Positions 10,130 to 45,523 of a stretch of DNA of 64,000 nt are shown here, piece by piece. A program made the position numbers and the translations under genes. The notes under the pieces are model-generated. The model saw only the letters and a list, made by a program, of their open reading frames with translations. It made no database searches and was not told the DNA's origin. This stretch comes from Flavobacterium sp. 9R (GTDB lineage: Bacteria > Bacteroidota > Bacteroidia > Flavobacteriales > Flavobacteriaceae), in NCBI RefSeq assembly GCF_902506345.1, contig NZ_LR733428.1, forward strand, positions 17,555 through 81,554. Reading direction: 5' to 3'. The first letter of the stretch is position 1; every line of letters begins with the position of its first letter.

Positions 10130-10172
10130 ATTATCGGATGGGTAAATATTTTTATTTATCCGATATTAGTTG

Positions 10173-10180
10173 TATTTTTG
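10173..10180 (+). promoter_or_regulatory. Candidate -7 element of fic
   Basis: TATTTTTG matches TAnnTTTG and lies only seven bases before the ATG at 10188. If it is used, the transcript would begin at or very near the start codon (leaderless or nearly so). No clear -33 TTG is seen. Confidence 0.35.
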
Positions 10181-10187
10181 TGGGGTT

Positions 10188-11141
10188 ATGTGGAAAATAG
10201 ATTTAGGATATCGCGAAGAATTTCAATCAACTTTTGAACGATTGTACCAAAAAAAACAAGATTTGCAAAACAGCAGACCCTTGCCTACTATCGCTTTGAA
10301 TAAAATAAAAGAAAGTTTATCCATAGAATGGACCTACAATTCCAATAGTATAGAAGGAAACACCTTAACATTAAGAGAAACCCAAATGGTTTTGCAAGAA
10401 GGCATCACTATAAAAGGGATTTCTTTAAGAGAACATTTCGAAGCACACAATCACGACAAAGCCATTGATTACCTTTTTTCGATAATCAATGAGAACTATG
10501 TATTGCGAAGTATTGATATATTATCGTTACACGGTTTGGTATTACGCTCGATTGAAGATGATTTTGCAGGTAGATTACGTAATGGAGGTGTCCGTATTTC
10601 GGGAGCCAATTTTATTCCACCCAATGCGAATAAAGTTTCGGATTTACTAGATGAATTGATTGACTTCATTAACACCAACCCTTTACATCTAAACGATATT
10701 GAGTTGGCTACTATTTTTCATCATAAATTAGTTTGGATTCATCCTTTTTTTGATGGCAATGGAAGAACGGTTCGTTTAAGTATGAATTTGTTATTGATGC
10801 GATGTGGTTTTCCACCAGCAATTATTCTCAAGAACGATAGAAAAAAATACTATGAAGCCCTCAATCAAGCTAATAATGGTAACTATCAAAAATTAATACT
10901 CTTGATGAGTCAAGCACTTGAGCGAAGTTTGAATATTTACCTAAATGCTATGCCTGATAGTAACAACGACTTTCAGACAATAGCTAATATTGTTAGTGAA
11001 CCAAGTAGCCCTTACGGACAAGAATATGTTAGTTTATTAGCTCGAACGGGAAAAATAGACGCCTACAAAGAAGGGCGAAATTGGTACACCACCAAAGAGG
11101 CCATTGAAGCCTATATCAGTACCAGAAAAAGAAAACGCTAA
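10188..11141 (+). CDS. Fic family protein with N-terminal inhibitory motif
   Basis: A 317-residue Fic-domain protein, predicted to transfer AMP (or a related group) from a nucleotide onto hydroxyl side chains of target proteins. The active-site loop HPFFDGNGRT starts at H185 and is intact. The inhibitory helix motif [S/T]xxxE[G/N] is present as S52-N-S-I-E56-G57, ahead of the Fic core. This makes it a class II, self-inhibited Fic protein that needs no separate antitoxin. The C-terminal ~60 residues look like a small DNA-binding or excisionase-like winged helix (TGKIDAYKEGRNWYTTKEA). The ATG at 10188 is preferred to an upstream TTG at 10170. The stop codon lies inside the terminator stem. Confidence 0.88.
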   Translation: MWKIDLGYREEFQSTFERLYQKKQDLQNSRPLPTIALNKIKESLSIEWTYNSNSIEGNTLTLRETQMVLQEGITIKGISLREHFEAHNHDKAIDYLFSIINENYVLRSIDILSLHGLVLRSIEDDFAGRLRNGGVRISGANFIPPNANKVSDLLDELIDFINTNPLHLNDIELATIFHHKLVWIHPFFDGNGRTVRLSMNLLLMRCGFPPAIILKNDRKKYYEALNQANNGNYQKLILLMSQALERSLNIYLNAMPDSNNDFQTIANIVSEPSSPYGQEYVSLLARTGKIDAYKEGRNWYTTKEAIEAYISTRKRKR

Positions 11142-11163: not shown

Positions 11164-11222
11164 GTATCCCTTTTTTAACACAATCTTCGATAGTGTTCTA
11201 CCAAAAGAATAAATCAAAATAG

Positions 11223-11230
11223 TAACTTTG
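11223..11230 (+). promoter_or_regulatory. Candidate -7 element of uvrA
   Basis: TAACTTTG matches the TAnnTTTG consensus, 29 bases before the uvrA start. No convincing -33 TTG was found at the right spacing. Confidence 0.4.
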
Positions 11231-11259
11231 CTTCCGACCTATTCGGAATTTGCAAAATT

Positions 11260-14094
11260 ATGCTAGATACAAACAATACTATTGAAGTTCAAGGCGCTCG
11301 CGTTCACAACCTAAAAAACATCGACATTGCTATTCCTAGAGAAAAACTCGTTGTCATAACAGGACTTTCGGGTTCGGGAAAATCGTCTTTGGCATTCGAC
11401 ACTATTTATGCCGAAGGACAACGTCGCTATGTAGAAACATTTTCGGCTTATGCCCGACAATTTTTAGGAGGATTAGAACGTCCAGATGTTGATAAAATCG
11501 ATGGTCTTTCGCCTGTGATTGCTATTGAACAAAAAACGACTAGCAAAAGCCCGCGTTCTACCGTGGGAACAATTACTGAAATATACGATTTCTTGCGTTT
11601 GTTATATGCGCGTGGTGCTGATGCCTATAGTTATAATACGGGAGAAAAAATGGTTTCCTACTCTGATGAGCAAATCAAAGAATTAATCATTCAGGATTTT
11701 AATGGAAAAAGAATCAATATTTTGGCTCCAATCATTCGAGCGAGAAAAGGACATTATGCCGAACTCTTCCAACAAATTACCAAACAAGGTTTTCTAAAAG
11801 TAAGAGTAAATGGAGAAATTGTAGACATTACTCCCGGAATGAAACTCGACCGTTACAAAACACACGATATAGAAATTGTAGTGGATAGAATTGTTGTTGA
11901 TACTTCTGATGACATACAAAAACGTTTGTCCGAAAGTATCAACACTGCTATGCATCACGGTGAAAATGTATTGATGATTTTGAATCAGGATACGAATGAG
12001 GTACGCTTTTTTAGTCGTAATTTGATGTGTCCAACTACTGGAATTTCGTATCAAAATCCTGAACCCAATTTGTTTTCTTTCAACTCACCAAAAGGAGCTT
12101 GCGAACACTGTAATGGATTAGGGACTATTAATGAAATCAATACCAAAAAAATCATTCCCAATCCAAAATTATCTATCAAAGCAGGTGGTTTTGCTCCGCT
12201 TGGAGAATACAAGTCGTCTTGGATTTTTAAGCAGCTTGAAACTATTGGAGAAAAATTTAATTTTAAAATAACGGACCCCATCGAAAAAATTCCTCCAGAA
12301 GCTATTGAAATGATTTTGAATGGTGGTAAAGAAAAATTTGCTGTTCAATCCAAGGATTTGGGCGTCACGAGAGAGTACAAAATTGATTTTGAAGGCATTT
12401 CACATTTCATCAAAAACCAACACGATGAAAGCGGCTCTACTGCTATCAAGCGTTGGGCTAAAGAATTTATGGACGAAATTGCTTGTCCAGTTTGCGAAGG
12501 TTCTCGCCTTAAAAAAGAAGCTAATTATTTTAGAGTAAACGAAAAGAATATTTCTGAATTGTGCACTATGGACATTTCAGATTTGACGGCTTGGTTTTTG
12601 GATTTAGAAAATCATTTGACCGATAAACAAAAACGAATTGCAACAGAAGTCATCAAGGAAATCAAAGACAGATTAGCGTTTTTGATGAATGTTGGTTTAA
12701 ATTATTTGGCGTTGAGCCGAAGTTCTAAATCACTTTCGGGTGGTGAAGCACAGCGCATTCGTTTGGCTACCCAAATTGGCTCGCAATTGGTTGGTGTGCT
12801 TTATATTTTAGACGAACCGAGTATTGGTTTACATCAGAGAGATAATGAAAAACTAATTCATTCGCTAGAGCAATTGCGTGATATTGGCAATTCCGTTTTG
12901 GTCGTTGAGCACGACAAAGATATGATTGAACGTGCCGATTATGTAATAGATATTGGTCCAAAAGCAGGGAAATATGGAGGCGAAATCATCAGCATTGGTA
13001 CTCCACAAGAAACCTTAGCATCCAATACTATAACTGCACAATATTTGAATGGAAAAATGAAATTTGACATTCCCAAAAAGCGCAGAACTGGCAATGGAAA
13101 GTTCCTTAAATTAACTGGAGCAACGGGAAACAATCTAAAAAATGTTTCTATAGAAATTCCGCTAGGGCAAATGATTTGTGTAACAGGTGTTTCGGGGAGT
13201 GGAAAATCAACTTTAATCAACGAAACCCTCTACCCTATCTTGAATGCTTATTATTTTAACGGGGTCAAAAAACCGCAACCTTATAAAAAGATTGAAGGTT
13301 TGGAACATATCGATAAAGTAATTGATATTGACCAAAGTCCAATTGGAAGAACACCGCGTTCTAATCCTGCGACTTACACTGAGGTTTTTACCGAAATCCG
13401 CAATTTGTTTACGATGACTTCCGAAAGTATGATTCGGGGTTACAAAGCGGGACGTTTTAGTTTTAATGTAAAAGGGGGGCGTTGCGAAACCTGCGAAGGT
13501 TCTGGTGTTCGAACTATCGAAATGAACTTTTTACCTGATGTGTATGTAGAATGCGAAAGCTGTCAGGGCAAACGATTTAATAGAGAAACCCTTGAAATTC
13601 GCTACAAAGGCAAATCGATTTCGGATGTATTGGATATGACTATTGATGAAGCGGTACCGTTTTTCGAAAATATTCCAAAAATATATAGAAAAGTAAAAAC
13701 CTTGCAAGATGTTGGTTTGGGTTACATAACGCTTGGACAACAAAGTACCACGCTTTCTGGTGGTGAAGCACAACGTATTAAACTAGCGGGTGAATTGTCT
13801 AAAAAAGATACAGGAAATACGTTTTATATTTTAGACGAACCTACTACAGGCTTGCATTTTGAGGATATTCGGGTGTTGATGGATGTGATTAATCGATTGG
13901 TGGACAAAGGAAATACCGTTTTGATTATCGAACACAATATGGACGTCATTAAACTCGCCGATTATATCATTGACATTGGTCCCGAAGGCGGAAAAGGTGG
14001 TGGACAGCTTGTAGCCAAAGGAACACCTGAGGAAATCATTAAAGTAAAAAAGAGTTATACAGGAGAATTTTTAAAGAAAGAATTGAAAGTTTAA
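11260..14094 (+). CDS. uvrA: Excinuclease ABC subunit A (UvrA)
   Basis: A 944-residue damage-recognition ATPase of nucleotide excision repair, which works with UvrB and UvrC. It has two ABC ATPase halves: the first Walker [10 protein letters not shown] is near residue 35, the second GVSGSGKST near residue 645, and there are two signature/Walker B sets ([12 protein letters not shown] with [12 protein letters not shown], and [12 protein letters not shown] with [12 protein letters not shown]). The zinc-finger cysteine pairs are present (CEHC and CPVC; later CETC and CESC 19 residues apart). The length is normal. The last 20 codons are duplicated downstream at 18341-18409, so the native 3' end appears to have been replaced when the McrBC-like module entered. 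The C-terminus here reads KKELKV. Confidence 0.97.
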
Positions 14095-14130
14095 TTTAAA
14101 AAAATTACTTTTAAAGAAATATAAAATTAA

Positions 14131-16572
14131 ATGAAAATAATAGCAAAAAAAGTTAGACAATTTATAGGTTACAAAAATGGACTAATAAAACCAATATTTA
14201 AAATTGATGATAATCAAAACATATCACCAATTTCTTTGGAAGAATATCCAAATAGTGGACATATTTTTTTTAGTGATTATGAATTATTAGATAATGATAT
14301 AAAAGAAGAAATATTTTTAATGGATAATTGTTTTTTTATATCAGAAGACAATAACTATGAAGATAAAAAAACGGAAAGTGGAGCTTGCAAAAAAAGAATA
14401 AATTACAATACTAGAATAAGTAGTTATTTCAAAAATATTGAGCCTACAAAATTCATTCCTATTTATACAAATAGTTTTTCCATACAAAATAATGAAGTAG
14501 ATTTTCCAGAAAATATAAAAAGTAAAATATTCTTTCTTAAAAACAAGACAAAATTATTTGGTCCCTTTGAAAGAAATGGTAAAGAGCTTAAAGCTATAAA
14601 TTTTAAAGAATTTGAAGAAAATTTTAACGATCAATTATTTTTAAATTTTATTGAAGACTATGAAAGAAAATATGACACTTCAACAATATTTGAGATAATA
14701 CTAGAAGAAGCATCAAACTTCATTTTTTCAGATAATGAAGGTTTTGAGTATCTAGAAGATTTTAAATTTTTTATAGATAGTAAAATTGGCATTGCAATTG
14801 ACTTTACTCCCGTTGCATCACTTCATAAATGGGCTCTAGAAAAACTAGAACAAAGTTCACCAAGTATTTCTCCTTTCTTAAAAGAGATTAAAAACATATC
14901 ATCATCAGCCATTTCTTCTGCTGAAAATCTCAAATGGAAAAAGTATATTGATTATTTAGAAACAATTAAGAATGAAGAAGTTGAGATTGAAAATTTAGTT
15001 AAGTTATTATTTAACAAAAAATTCATTAAGGAAACAATTGATACTTCTGAAATAGAGAAATTAAATAAAAAAATAGAAAATATTGAGAATGATTTAAAAC
15101 TAAAAGATAATGCAAATTTAGCTTTAATTGACGCAAATAGAACTTTAAAAGATAAACTCAAAGAAGAAAAAAGTAAGGTAAAAGAAAATAGTAAAGTAGA
15201 TGCTATTCGCTTTCCAAACCTTTTCAAAGTTTTAGATATTGAAAATGAAATTAATGAAATTGAAAAAATTTTAATTGAAAAAATAACTTCTTCAAATCTA
15301 AAAAAGGAAAACGAAAGGCTCTCTGTAAGAATAGAGATATTAGACGAGGAAATCAAAAAGAAGCAAGAAGAATTAAGAGGAGTTGAAGATTCTGTAAAAA
15401 AGATTAAAGATATATTTGACAGAACAGCATCTGAACATACTGCAAAATTACAAGAAGCTAAAACGTACAACGACTTACTAAATGGTATTGAAATCTTGCC
15501 AAACAAGGATAAAAAAAAGGTTTCAGAAATAATAAAAGCAAACATAATTTCATTGAATCCTGATATAACTGCAAAAAAATACATCCTTGAAATTAAAGAA
15601 AGATTGTCAAGTCAAGGGAGGGAATATTCTTTTAACGATGTTGCAAATATAATAATTACAATCAACCAAACATTTATAACCATTATAGCTGGTGCTCCTG
15701 GAGTTGGCAAAACTTCATTGGTTGAAAAATTATCAAAAAGTTATGGACTAAACGAAGATTATGGTTATCTGGAAATTGCTTGTGCAAAAGGATGGACATC
15801 TTCAAAAGATTTGATTGGTTTTTTTAATCCGTTAACTAATAAATTCCAACCAGCCAAAACCAAATTAAGAGAAGCTTTAAAAAAATCCGAAGAAAATCCA
15901 AATGCTCCTTATCTTGTTCTGCTCGACGAAGCTAACTTGAGTCCAATTGAGCATTATTGGTCTGATTTTATTAAGCTTGCCGATAGCAATTATTCACGAA
16001 AAATAAAAATTTCAGATGATGAAGAAATTCAGTTTGGAGATGGTTTTAGATTTGTTGCAACCATAAATCACGACTACACGACGGAAGCACTTTCAAACAG
16101 ATTGATAGATAGAGCTGCAATAATACAATTAGATAAAACAAATATTATTACTGATGATTCAACAATCAACATTGATTCAATTTGTAATTTTAAAGAAGTA
16201 GAAAATATTTTTACGGAAACACAAAAATGGCAAACAGAAGAAACATTAATTAAAGATACATTCAATAAAATAAAAGAAAGATTAGAATCTAATCATACTA
16301 TCTTAATTAGTCCACGAAAAGAAATTGCAATTTATAAGTATTGTAAAGTTGCTACTGGCTTATTAGAAGGCAATAGTTATGTTGCACTTGATTATGCCAT
16401 ATGTCAACACATTCTCCCATTAATTAACGGGAGGGGAGAATCGTTTCAAAAGTTACTAGAAGGTTTGAAAAGTGATTTGAATGATAAAGGAATGACCAAA
16501 TCAGAAAAATTATTGACCAAAATAATTGAAAGAGGCAAAGTGTTAAAACACTTCAGATACATTTACTATTAA
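14131..16572 (+). CDS. McrB-like coiled-coil AAA+ NTPase of a type IV-like restriction system
   Basis: An 813-residue protein. Residues 1-300 are an unrecognised, acidic and Phe/Asn-rich N-terminal region with no known modified-base reader visible by eye. Residues ~308-460 are strongly heptad-like and charged, predicting a long coiled coil in two stretches. Residues ~490-800 are an AAA+ motor of the AAA_5/McrB type: Walker A GAPGVGKT at 521-528, Walker B LVLLDEAN with D599-E600, and a sensor-like TINHDY with N646. The latter stands where classical McrB has the GTP-specifying MNxxD, so GTP versus ATP use is open. It is followed after 10 bases by its nuclease partner. The layout recalls the coiled-coil nuclease tandem (CoCoNuT) branch of McrBC systems. 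Its AT content is far higher than that of uvrA. Confidence 0.78.
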   Translation: MKIIAKKVRQFIGYKNGLIKPIFKIDDNQNISPISLEEYPNSGHIFFSDYELLDNDIKEEIFLMDNCFFISEDNNYEDKKTESGACKKRINYNTRISSYFKNIEPTKFIPIYTNSFSIQNNEVDFPENIKSKIFFLKNKTKLFGPFERNGKELKAINFKEFEENFNDQLFLNFIEDYERKYDTSTIFEIILEEASNFIFSDNEGFEYLEDFKFFIDSKIGIAIDFTPVASLHKWALEKLEQSSPSISPFLKEIKNISSSAISSAENLKWKKYIDYLETIKNEEVEIENLVKLLFNKKFIKETIDTSEIEKLNKKIENIENDLKLKDNANLALIDANRTLKDKLKEEKSKVKENSKVDAIRFPNLFKVLDIENEINEIEKILIEKITSSNLKKENERLSVRIEILDEEIKKKQEELRGVEDSVKKIKDIFDRTASEHTAKLQEAKTYNDLLNGIEILPNKDKKKVSEIIKANIISLNPDITAKKYILEIKERLSSQGREYSFNDVANIIITINQTFITIIAGAPGVGKTSLVEKLSKSYGLNEDYGYLEIACAKGWTSSKDLIGFFNPLTNKFQPAKTKLREALKKSEENPNAPYLVLLDEANLSPIEHYWSDFIKLADSNYSRKIKISDDEEIQFGDGFRFVATINHDYTTEALSNRLIDRAAIIQLDKTNIITDDSTINIDSICNFKEVENIFTETQKWQTEETLIKDTFNKIKERLESNHTILISPRKEIAIYKYCKVATGLLEGNSYVALDYAICQHILPLINGRGESFQKLLEGLKSDLNDKGMTKSEKLLTKIIERGKVLKHFRYIYY

Positions 16573-16582
16573 TCGTTAATTT

Positions 16583-18304
16583 ATGATGAATTGTATTTTA
16601 CATTGCTTAAAAAACAATCAAAATCAAAACTTTGAGTTAAACCAAGGTGACTGTATCGATGAAACTGATAATTTTTCTTTTTACTTAGAAAGTGATTCCG
16701 ATTGTGGTGACGTAAGAATTGACATCACAGATATACCTTTTAAACTTAATAGGCTGACTGAAATTAAACATAAATATATTTATGTACTTGATTACAATTC
16801 TCTTCAAGATTATTTTCAAAGCCAAAAATTTAGAATTGATAGTTATAGTAAAGAAATTTATTGTAGTGCACTCCAAAAAAAAATCTGGTTTTATAGATTA
16901 TTTGTTAACTATCCTATTGGTCGCTGCGACATTCTGTTAATTGAGAATACAACCGAAAGAATAATACAATCTTTTAGTTTGAATATTAATTCATCAAAAA
17001 TAAATGAGATAGAGTTCGATTCGTTAGTTAAATATATTGAATCAAAAAGAACAAAAATATGGACAAAACATTCCTTATTAAAGCATACAGCAGCTCCATT
17101 GAATGCAGATGATAAAATAGAATGGCTACTTAATTTTTGCGAAAATTTTGTTAATGATTTAAAAAACGAACATCTTCATTTTTTTAGTTTCGATAAAATT
17201 AAAATTATCAAGCAAAAAAATGAAATTGTAAACTATACAGCAGAAATAAATATATCAGATGAATCATTATTTTGGCTAATAAATAACTTAGACACTTTAT
17301 ATCCATCCACATCCTACGATGTAAATAAAATAATAATAAATAATAGACTCTTTGCTCCTTTAGAAATACTCTCAAATGAACTTGAAGAAAGTACTGACAC
17401 AAACGAAAATCAAATAATACACGGTTTTTTAACTGAGTTAAAACTTTTCTTAAATCAAATTAAAGACTCTTTTGAAGAGAATATTAAAAATTGTTCCAAA
17501 GTTACTTTCGACGGTCGCTTAAATTTCTATTCTTACAAAAGAAGTCTAAAACGTTTGCAAGACATAATTGAAAACATAATTGAAGTTAAATTTTATTTAG
17601 ACAGATATATACCTGTAACTAATGAAACTTTAGATTTTATCAATACCAACAAAATAGAATCTAAAGAACATTATAATTTTGTATACAAAAAGCTAATTGA
17701 ATGGTTACTTTATAAAAACGCTACCTATTCTAAAGATAAAAAACTATTCAAAGGAATAAACAGAATGGATCAACTATTTGAAAAAGCTTGTTTTTACAAG
17801 TTAATAGATTCTTTCATAAATTTAGAATATGAAGCTGAAGAAATTAGTCGAAATGAAGATGGGTTCCCTAATAAAATTAAATTATTTAAAAAAGGTATTG
17901 TTCATTATTTGTATTTTGAAACAATACCAAACAAACTTACAACAGTCCGAAATAATTCTGGAAAGTTAAAACCTGATTTTACTATTGAATTGGAGAATGG
18001 TAAATTCATAATTATTGATGCAAAATACAAGAAATTAGACATCATTAATAGATTTGATTATCCTGATTTAACATTAAAATATCTTCACGGTATAGGAAAT
18101 AAATCTGGTGGTTTTTTCAATCCTTTAGGATTATTTGTATTATATCCAGGAATCGAAGATTCAATAGAGTTTTATCAAAATAAGGAATATGATTTAGATA
18201 GCGACAACCCTGTATATCCATCAATTGGTAGTATTGGATTAAACTTTGAAAATGAAAGTCGATTATTAAATAACAGTATTCAGAAACTTCTAGAAGTTAA
18301 TTAA
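16583..18304 (+). CDS. McrC-like DUF2357/PD-(D/E)xK nuclease partner
   Basis: A 573-residue protein, the expected nuclease subunit of the adjoining McrB-like motor. The C-terminal third carries the nuclease core: KLKPDFTIEL with D465, then the strand FIIIDAKYKKLD with D479 and K481, the D-(x)n-D/E-x-K pattern of the PD-(D/E)xK fold. The preceding 450 residues resemble the DUF2357-type beta-rich and helical region of McrC homologues. The gene is as AT-rich as its partner and ends 36 bases before the duplicated uvrA tail. Known McrBC systems cut DNA, and some relatives may cut RNA; the target here cannot be told from sequence. Confidence 0.75.
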   Translation: MMNCILHCLKNNQNQNFELNQGDCIDETDNFSFYLESDSDCGDVRIDITDIPFKLNRLTEIKHKYIYVLDYNSLQDYFQSQKFRIDSYSKEIYCSALQKKIWFYRLFVNYPIGRCDILLIENTTERIIQSFSLNINSSKINEIEFDSLVKYIESKRTKIWTKHSLLKHTAAPLNADDKIEWLLNFCENFVNDLKNEHLHFFSFDKIKIIKQKNEIVNYTAEINISDESLFWLINNLDTLYPSTSYDVNKIIINNRLFAPLEILSNELEESTDTNENQIIHGFLTELKLFLNQIKDSFEENIKNCSKVTFDGRLNFYSYKRSLKRLQDIIENIIEVKFYLDRYIPVTNETLDFINTNKIESKEHYNFVYKKLIEWLLYKNATYSKDKKLFKGINRMDQLFEKACFYKLIDSFINLEYEAEEISRNEDGFPNKIKLFKKGIVHYLYFETIPNKLTTVRNNSGKLKPDFTIELENGKFIIIDAKYKKLDIINRFDYPDLTLKYLHGIGNKSGGFFNPLGLFVLYPGIEDSIEFYQNKEYDLDSDNPVYPSIGSIGLNFENESRLLNNSIQKLLEVN

Positions 18305-18340
18305 TTTAACATAATATTGATTTAAAACTCTAATCAAAGC

Positions 18341-18409
18341 ATACCTGAGGAAATCATTAAAGTAAAAAAGAGCTATACAGGAGAATTTTTGAAAAAAGAA
18401 TTGGTATAA
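18341..18409 (+). pseudogene. Duplicated 3' end of uvrA (insertion footprint)
   Basis: An open stretch of 22 codons plus stop that matches the UvrA C-terminus ([20 protein letters not shown] then V-stop). It matches 14025-14085 over 61 bases with three differences, each silent in the uvrA frame (AGT/AGC, TTA/TTG, AAG/AAA). No start codon or upstream coding sequence remains. It is most simply the original tail of the resident uvrA, pushed away when the McrBC-like module arrived carrying a tail from a related strain. Confidence 0.85.
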
Positions 18410-18490
18410 TTCCCCTCAACAACAGAAAAGAACAAGAACATAATAATAACAGATTTTTATCCGTTGAAAAAATAATAAAATTGAAAGCAT

Positions 18491-19252: not shown

Positions 19253-19350
19253 ACAATTAGTAGTTCGTTTCAAGGAGAATATGTATTTTTATGTGGAAGA
19301 GTTAGATTTTTGTTTTGAAATGAAACCAAGAAAGCTAAATGTTTATCTTT

Positions 19351-19417
19351 AGCCCCGATAGTAGCGGCATCCTTTGTTTTTTTCTTTAAAAAAACAAAGA
19401 TATAGCGGATAGCGGGA
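19351..19417 (+). repeat. Dispersed flavobacterial hairpin repeat, copy A
   Basis: It starts AGCCCCGATAG, contains GCGGCATCCTTTG, has a T-rich/A-rich hairpin (CTTTGTTTTTTT against AAAAAAACAAAG), and ends AGCGGATAGCGGGAC. Copies B (45455-45523) and C (51835-51914, opposite strand) share the same outer and inner blocks. It resembles the structured element known as the Flavo-1 motif, but that identity is from memory and was not checked. Confidence 0.7.
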
Positions 19418-19512
19418 CGTTGTTTCCTGAAAAGCCTATTCTTTCTGCTTCAAAAAAAAGCAACTCTATTTTAATTGAATGTAAGTTTACCCCTAAATCC
19501 AAAAGCTGTTTG

Positions 19513-45454: not shown

Positions 45455-45523
45455 AGCCCCGGCAGGAATGGCATCCTTTGCCTTTTTCCTTTAAAAAGGC
45501 AAAGATATAATGGATGACGGGAC
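45455..45523 (+). repeat. Dispersed flavobacterial hairpin repeat, copy B
   Basis: AGCCCCGGCAG, GGCATCCTTTGCC, then a hairpin of GCCTTTTT against AAAAAGGC, CAAAGATATAATGGATGACGGGAC at the end. Same architecture as copies A and C. It lies between gnd and the L,D-transpeptidase gene, on the strand opposite to both. Confidence 0.7.

Follow-up and report, generated by a model that had tools for sequence, protein, structure and literature searches.

A candidate docking site for small defense cassettes at the 3' end of uvrA in Flavobacterium

A stretch of 64,000 nucleotides from Flavobacterium sp. 9R (contig NZ_LR733428.1, positions 17,555 to 81,554; hereafter "the window") carries a two-gene McrBC-like module between two copies of the 3' end of uvrA, the gene for excinuclease ABC subunit A. 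Other genomes of the genus hold unrelated cargo in the same arrangement. With modest confidence, we favor the interpretation that small cassettes with no recognizable integrase repeatedly dock at the uvrA 3' end and are moved by host homologous recombination. Judged by its predicted proteins, the cargo would mostly consist of anti-phage or toxin-antitoxin genes. Both empty and filled sites exist, the downstream copy of the tail is the resident one, and the upstream copy is joined to the cargo. Furthermore, the cargo differs between loci, and the arrangement is found in two chromosomal contexts. Genomes and sampled loci are designated below by G and L numbers, respectively.

A duplicated uvrA tail and its empty-site counterpart

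The uvrA gene of the window (11260..14094, plus strand) is complete, encodes 944 amino acids, and matches the equivalog models NF001503/TIGR00630. A repeat search of the window revealed that its 3' end at 14025-14085 recurs as a direct repeat at 18343-18403, with a spacing of 4318. The two copies share 58 of 61 bases. The mismatches at 14055 (T/C), 14073 (A/G), and 14076 (G/A) are all silent, and the copies encode one identical 20-residue peptide, beyond which the ends diverge (ELKV* for copy 1 and ELV* for copy 2). When the 61-mer was searched against its own 3.58 Mb genome, these were the only two strong matches (E 8.4e-26 and 7.9e-22). The next best match has an E value of just 0.1, and a chance repeat was therefore rejected.

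Copy 1 (14025..14085, plus strand) is part of the working gene and joins the module on its right side, such that the last 70 bases of uvrA comprise copy 1 and a cassette-linked end (KV*). The left end of the cassette (14086..14130, plus strand) holds these two codons, the stop codon at 14092-14094, and an AT-rich leader. Two open reading frames (ORFs) on the plus strand follow, named mA (14131..16572, 813 amino acids) and mB (16583..18304, 573 amino acids). A short untranslated stretch (18305..18342, plus strand) then reaches copy 2 (18343..18409, plus strand), the footprint of the resident tail, which is composed of the 61 bases and the resident end GTATAA (V*). As read from the sequence, weak similarity to uvrA may extend a few more bases to the left of 18343. 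The G+C content is 0.259 for the module, 0.375 for uvrA, and 0.357 for the window. Beyond copy 2, the resident 3' flank of uvrA (18410..18490, plus strand) lies in a 2375-bp block that is 94.65% identical to locus L010 of genome G046. This flank leads to a LOG-family gene (TIGR00730; 18491..19219, plus strand), which is the right neighbor of uvrA in most Flavobacterium genomes sampled.

A sequence-only reading of this DNA had proposed that a 61-base uvrA tail recurs around an AT-rich two-gene module, that its three mismatches are silent in the uvrA frame, and that the island has no integrase. The repeat search and base comparison bear out the first point, including its coordinates, and the translations of both copies agree with the second. 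Likewise, neither module protein matched an integrase family in Pfam, other profile libraries, or PADLOC.

Genome G046 (L010/L122), the nearest relative, provides the empty site. Its LOG protein is 99% identical to that of the window, and its DNA is about 94.5% identical. In G046, a single uvrA tail is joined directly to the sequence seen after window position 18403, and the window flanks, when joined at the repeat, align with it as one block of 6001 columns. The tail and stop codon of G046 are those of copy 2. Therefore, the downstream copy is the resident tail, and the cargo is associated with the copy that completes the working gene. The outgroups G105 and G208 have the base of copy 1 at 14073 and 14076, where copy 2 matches G046 instead; they differ from one another at 14055. 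Thus, copy 1 probably comes from a different uvrA lineage than copy 2.

Two considerations temper this last point. The 3/61 differences are no greater than the background divergence between the window and G046 (about 5%). Moreover, an ancestor that held both copies would give the same pattern if one copy was precisely lost in G046. A foreign origin of copy 1 is therefore likely, rather than proven, in this genome. Across positions 11200-14100, divergence from G046 (L122) is a mosaic of 0 to about 10% per 200 bp with no clear tract edge, which suggests that recombination may be frequent in uvrA. The sequence-only reading had anticipated an empty site with one uvrA tail directly before the sequence following 18403, exactly as G046 has it, and empty-site strains without a single tail at this junction did not appear. 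It had further proposed that the cassette restored the reading frame and left the resident tail as a footprint, which agrees with copy 2 being the G046 tail and copy 1 being joined to the module. Its claim that the working tail is foreign fares less well. Outgroup polarity at 14073 and 14076 suggests another lineage, but the number of differences is within background, and this origin is only likely.

The mA protein has a variable N-terminal part followed by an McrB-like AAA+ domain (PF07728, above the cut-off, E 1.5e-6; PADLOC PDC-M26A, E 2.2e-28). In an alignment with its homologue from G364 (L142), the NxD motif, which the accessible text of PMC11090510 describes as a feature of McrBC relatives, reads TINHD. 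The G364 homologues are 62% (mA) and 83% (mB) identical to the window proteins. The McrC-like mB protein matches PF10117 under the curated cut-off (E 0.00099) and appears to combine DUF2357 with a PD-(D/E)XK-like stretch, PDFTIELENGKFIIIDAKYKK, whose motif was judged by eye. Its 83% identical homologue also matches PF09823 (DUF2357), below the cut-off, and tblastn with mB retrieved three plasmids whose proteins, at 22-23% identity, are annotated DUF2357. Matches to mB occur in 3 of 398 genomes in a search of the genus, a number that counts its own genome and one partial match, and in its own genome alone among 299 in a search of the family. Phage records gave no match to mB. A PDB sequence search returned nothing for mA and one weak match for mB (E 0.28). 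From this domain content, the module would act as a modification-dependent McrBC-like restriction system.

Several other features lie close to this locus. A Fic/DOC family protein is encoded upstream of uvrA at 10170-11141. A Flavo-1 RNA (RF01705) is located immediately downstream of LOG at 19347-19423, and looser matches to the Flavo-1 motif occur at 45455 (3 mismatches) and 51893 (2 mismatches).

Unrelated cargo at uvrA across the genus

To examine the recurrence of this arrangement, we assembled 121 sequences, namely the window together with 120 stretches from the LOG region of other genomes in the genus; 119 of these stretches represent some of the genomes among the matches listed for LOG. 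Two stretches, L143 (G020) and L142 (G364), were taken for their match to mB, and L142 is also among the LOG matches listed. The uvrA gene lies upstream of LOG in 109/121 sequences, and the other 12 were excluded from the count (L143, which has no LOG, and 11 without uvrA in the stretch). The gap between the two genes ranges from 15 to 6043 bases with a median of 818, and is at most 300 bases in 28/109. A profile of the 109 tails (score of at least 20) identified a second uvrA tail in 15/109 loci including the window, or 13/107 without the window and L142. This count, like the count of repeated ORF ends given below, treats related genomes as separate, and one species may appear twice.

As a control, five 2-mer-block shuffles of each interval yielded a maximum profile score of 10.2. 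Five loci (L226, L223, L234, L235, and L236) with scores of 7.8-12.5 are within or just over this maximum and were left uncounted; they may represent decayed traces or chance. In L236, where the gap to LOG is 222 bases, a tail-like trace (69% over 61 bases, E 6.8e-6, profile score 7.8) begins 37 bases past the uvrA stop codon, and no cargo separates the two. The trace may be the decayed remainder of a copy whose cargo was lost, or a product of chance. Weak tail-like traces are located at 37-96 and 192-241 past the uvrA stop codon in L236 and L235, and are possibly remnants of cargo loss. The sequence-only reading had named a duplicate without any module as a finding that would speak against it. 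L236 is the one weak candidate, and its score falls inside the shuffle range.

The cargo of the 15 filled loci is diverse. A DUF559 nuclease is present in nine (L126, L128, L133, L159, L180, L199, L209, L219, and L227), and the McrBC-like pair is present in two (the window and L142 of G364). The remaining loci carry an AAA_15 and SduA_C-like pair corresponding to PADLOC PDC-M29 (L129), a 1271-amino-acid Tmn/YobI NTPase (L144, E 1.8e-72), a ParE toxin with its antitoxin (L190), and ORFs without an assigned family (L241). The last of these include a 144-amino-acid ORF that matched no Pfam family and a 115-amino-acid ORF on the minus strand. Pfam and PADLOC scans covered one representative ORF per cargo type, and no integrase was found among the scanned proteins, which are both window proteins and one representative of each other type. 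Hence the expectation, stated from the window alone, that other strains would hold different cargo at this site proved correct, in that unrelated cargo lies between two uvrA tails. DUF559 genes occur in 11/109 intervals, nine of which have a detected tail copy. Antitoxin genes occur in 8/109 and ParE genes in 7/109 intervals, and just one has a detected tail copy. Thus, cargo lacking a detectable footprint also exists.

Several observations accompany the cargo survey. The DUF559 genes at uvrA loci (L123, L126, L128, L133, L159, L180, L199, L209, L219, and L227), and also those elsewhere (L244-L252), lie between inverted palindromes resembling repetitive extragenic palindromes (REP-like), TTCCCCTCCnnnGGAGGGGTGCCCG..GGGCGGGGTGG and the reverse complement. 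More distant DUF559 genes elsewhere (L249-L252) have other palindromic repeats, as if there were one repeat family per nuclease. Two loci have an orphan, decayed uvrA tail right upstream of LOG (L205:11240-11299 and L170:1558-1602) with uvrA on another contig, which suggests rearrangement within a former cassette.

The conclusion that copy 2 is resident extends beyond the window. We compared the 60 nt after each copy with the uvrA flanks of 38 genomes that have no tail copy and a gap of at most 600 bases. In 15/15 filled loci, the flank after copy 2 fits these empty-site genomes better than does the flank after copy 1. The scores for copy 2 versus copy 1 are 52.0 versus 14.8 for the window (against G046 for copy 2), 54.0 versus -0.6 for L199, 54.0 versus 4.7 for L227, and 46.0 versus 3.1 for L209, and the margins are thin for L129 (17.7 versus 14.3), L142 (8.5 versus 4.7), and L159 (10.0 versus 1.9). 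In addition, for 6/17 pairs (filled loci L144, L190, L199, and L209), the alignment with a copy-less relative starts within the tail copy and continues without a break into the sequence beyond it. For the remaining 11/17 pairs, the alignment is broken or both partners hold cargo.

All six cargo types restore the uvrA stop codon 1-2 codons past EL. A random intergenic position restores such a stop with p 0.13, and p^5 is about 4e-5. The left end of each cassette is therefore probably itself a uvrA end, and selection for a working UvrA may contribute. The last codon or the stop is unlike between the two copies in 14/15 loci. Tail copies measure about 45 to about 190 bases, and the left edge, counted back from the stop codon, varies with the cargo: about 197 nt for ParE, 143-144 nt for M29, 101-112 nt for the better-kept DUF559 loci, 60-70 nt for the McrBC-like pair, and 50-62 nt for Tmn. 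The left part of copy 2 is often decayed, and the last 30 bases before the final codons match the locus's own copy 1 at 26 or more of 30 positions in 13/15. Renewal of the right part alone at each entry would produce this pattern, which also fits gene conversion between the copies. In 9/15 loci, no other tail matches copy 2 over 45 bases better than the working tail of the same locus does. The copies are identical over 60 bases including the stop in L142, over 51/51 bases in L126, and over 100/101 bases in L209.

The target is uvrA rather than its neighborhood. In L260 (G326), a locus sampled because uvrA is not beside LOG, uvrA precedes glgA and is followed by an M29 pair and a 143-base tail copy. 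The homologous M29 pair of L129 lies between uvrA and LOG with a 144-base tail copy, and L185, which also carries M29, has a decayed tail piece (72% over 79 bases). Because the M29 cassette has a tail copy in both contexts, dependence on the uvrA-LOG neighborhood was rejected.

A scan for ORF ends that recur 300-9000 bases downstream gave 17 hits among 2166 ORFs in 208 loci, and 17/17 are at uvrA. These loci are centered on uvrA or LOG, so their remaining genes mostly represent one set of neighbors sampled many times. They were picked for uvrA or LOG rather than for duplicates, with the exception of L265 (DUF559 match) and two loci picked for an mB match. The same scan of 40 control stretches from three genomes gave a hit for 1/614 ORFs. 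This hit is the atpG gene of G326 (L287, reverse complement 13637-13718 and 14560-14641), whose tail is duplicated over 82 bases at 88% identity on either side of two small lipoprotein-like ORFs; this is a second core gene with the architecture seen at uvrA. We rejected atpG as a second hotspot because 0/30 other genomes have such a duplicate within 1.5 kb downstream of atpG. In the sequence scanned, the preference for uvrA is strong. Fisher values carry no weight in this judgment, as they assume independence and a guessed total of 150-208 uvrA ends.

The pattern appears in Flavobacterium. A search for each gene's own tail up to 9 kb downstream of uvrA in other genera (L039-L118) gave no convincing duplicate. 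A match in Tenacibaculum (L073) lies within an unrelated ORF, and a match in L115 is a simple repeat at the stop codon; both were set aside. Viral contigs gave 0 exact matches to one degenerate uvrA-tail pattern.

Possible routes of cassette entry

The process that we favor, namely movement by host homologous recombination, would operate on cassettes with three parts: a uvrA end that includes at minimum the final codons and the stop, the cargo, and a right-edge stretch with homology to the terminal 50-200 bases of uvrA. Entry would occur by recombination within the uvrA tail, with uvrA serving as the left arm and the tail copy as the right arm, either by two crossovers from linear DNA or by one crossover of a circle. 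The host RecA pathway would presumably catalyze this exchange, and the first junction of each cargo family was probably illegitimate. The resident end would be shifted downstream to become the new right-hand arm, and the same two copies would permit precise loss of the cassette. The uvrA gene would stay whole because the cassette supplies its missing end. We put forward more tentatively the extended proposal of an integrase-free docking port, in which a replacement gene end and a second copy acting as an arm let host recombination add, swap, and precisely remove defense cassettes without uvrA ever being broken.

Because the left edge of the duplicate varies with the cargo family, homologous or illegitimate recombination fits better than an integrase with a fixed site. 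The sequence-only reading had likened the event to integration into tRNA 3' ends. This comparison holds for the displaced resident end and the restored gene, but an integrase with a fixed site fits the varying left edges less well.

A number of points weigh against movement by host recombination. Generic recombination leaves the strong preference for uvrA unexplained, and 50-60 bases is little homology for RecA. We infer both the donor-recipient event and the dependence on RecA; neither was observed. Given the mosaic divergence from G046, no crossover point could be mapped in uvrA of the window. The uvrA tail of another genome is nearer to copy 2 in 6/15 loci, and for the window this is the sister genome G046. 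The tree of uvrA and LOG is poorly resolved: the 15 filled tips need 15 changes, compared with a mean of 14.4 for shuffled labels, and its well-supported branches alone force just 2 changes. DUF559 distances partly track host distances (Mantel r 0.66, p 0.0006), and some of the pattern can therefore be put down to old insertion followed by vertical descent and loss. In places, the DUF559 genes jump between hosts (for L128-L199, a distance of 0.08 versus 0.15 for host genes). Finally, the putative McrBC-like function of the window module leans on weak domain matches for mB.

This vertical signal is what would be expected if each cargo family was captured once, one-sidedly, by homology-facilitated illegitimate recombination at microhomology, and was thereafter inherited vertically and lost through the repeats. 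The right junction is alike within a cargo family, the lone atpG case demonstrates that such an event is possible elsewhere, and displaced remnants have a precedent at the type VI secretion system (T6SS) loci of Vibrio cholerae, as the accessible text of PMC5361080 presents them. We consider this explanation rather unlikely, however, since the same M29 junction in two chromosomal contexts and the DUF559 host jumps point to later transfer. In addition, no tail is closer to the right copy than the working tail of its own host in 9/15 loci.

Site-specific integration, which we judge slightly less probable still, would involve a recombinase supplied in trans by a phage, an integrative element, or the host that recognizes a core within the final ~30-45 bases of uvrA. 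The cassettes would then be defective or mobilizable elements, each with a uvrA end within its attachment site. The scanned cargo representatives have no integrase, and the left homology edges vary with the cargo and reach past a minimal core, but left arms of varying uvrA homology are also compatible with arms borne by the element. No viral contig exactly matched the one degenerate uvrA-tail pattern used, and large integrase-bearing elements at uvrA were not searched systematically. The main reason to give a recombinase in trans some probability is the strong preference for a single gene. In addition, 13/15 loci retain the 30 bases that precede the final codons, and the frame is restored every time.

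Homing-like spread is improbable. According to this hypothesis, a cassette nuclease (DUF559 or the McrC-like mB) cuts the resident uvrA end, and repair copies the cassette together with its uvrA end. The same architecture is described at atp6, atp9, cox2, and nad3 of Glomus in the accessible text of PMC3630166, and in all nine of the 15 filled loci that have a DUF559 gene, the tail copy is close behind a REP-like repeat. However, the ParE and Tmn cassettes have no recognized homing nuclease, and DUF559 genes elsewhere (L244-L252) have no evident gene-tail duplicate. Where the two copies are near-identical, as in L209 (100/101) and L126 (51/51), an enzyme that cuts the tail would also attack the genome that encodes it.

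Transposition with a very long target-site duplication, whereby both copies derive from one resident tail, would account for copies that directly flank the insert, for the identical 60 bases including the stop in L142, and for the background-level 3/61 differences in the window, but we find it highly improbable and rejected an ordinary transposon-type duplication because the duplicate varies from about 45 to about 190 bases, the final codon or stop differs in 14/15 loci, all six cargo types restore the stop 1-2 codons past EL (chance p 0.13 each), and G046 and the outgroups polarize the copies, with the outgroups siding with copy 1 at two of three sites.

Defense genes spread fast, often in hotspots without a visible mobility gene, and the uvrA cassettes provide a concrete structural picture of such movement. 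Their signature, cargo enclosed by a duplicated gene tail, is simple and can be searched for in all genomes. The question of how integrase-less defense islands move thus becomes directly testable.

Comparison with known systems

Integrative elements located in the 3' ends of protein genes, such as icd and rlmH, restore their target and have direct repeats at both edges, and a protein gene as an integration target is not new in itself. These elements encode an integrase or a ccr recombinase, and their core is fixed. The uvrA cassettes share with such integrase-dependent islands the restored gene and the displaced resident end, but no recombinase gene is present in the scanned cargo. On the matter of a fixed core, the left edges vary with the cargo, yet the last 30 bases are kept in 13/15 loci.

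The window module resembles the CoCoNuT-type and other McrBC-related Type IV restriction systems covered in the accessible text of PMC11090510 in sharing an McrB-like AAA+ domain with an NxD motif and a putative DUF2357/PD-(D/E)XK-like partner. CoCoNuT systems, as portrayed there, have extra helicase or RNase genes, whereas the window module comprises two genes and none of those. At the level of locus organization, a single chromosomal locus with variable defense systems in Streptococcus suis is similar in that different defense systems occupy one site (PMC5398294, compared by its listing description only).

Helicobacter is among the organisms in which restriction-modification systems inserted with long, variable target duplications have been described (Nobusato et al. 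2000, as cited in the accessible parts of PMC1643837, PMC4978471, PMC3154945, and PMC3031569). Judged by these citing accounts, the likeness lies in restriction or defense genes between long, variable direct repeats (here about 45-190 bases) that are absent in a relative, with no transposase. Unlike in those cases, unrelated cargo here makes repeated use of one gene end across the genus. The repeat also completes a working gene, and its two copies are not equivalent: one is joined to the cargo, and the other is the resident end. The polarity in the window speaks against both repeats being copies of the resident target; the 3/61 differences are at background level, and the L142 copies are identical.

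Mobile ORFs of fungal mitochondria in Allomyces and Glomus show a C-terminal duplication and replacement of the gene end with silent differences, as reported in the accessible text of PMC3630166. By that account, the shared features are a foreign end (likely foreign in the case of the window) fused in frame, a native end located downstream, silent differences, and a native end like that of the sister species. The uvrA cassettes differ in residing in a bacterial chromosome and in carrying mostly putative defense or toxin-antitoxin cargo; nuclease-like genes occur in some cassettes only, and homing is putative. A combination of one-sided homologous and illegitimate recombination has been proposed for the T6SS effector arrays of V. 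cholerae (PMC5361080, accessible text), which have in common with the uvrA loci the one-sided homology, the displaced 3' pieces of the resident gene, and the lack of an integrase. As described in that source, the T6SS loci displace an immunity gene and lose the old effector, whereas here the core gene is kept intact. A literature search, made mostly without subscription papers, found no report of uvrA as such an island or defense site. The apparently new feature is that unrelated defense cargo repeatedly uses the end of one core gene across a genus.

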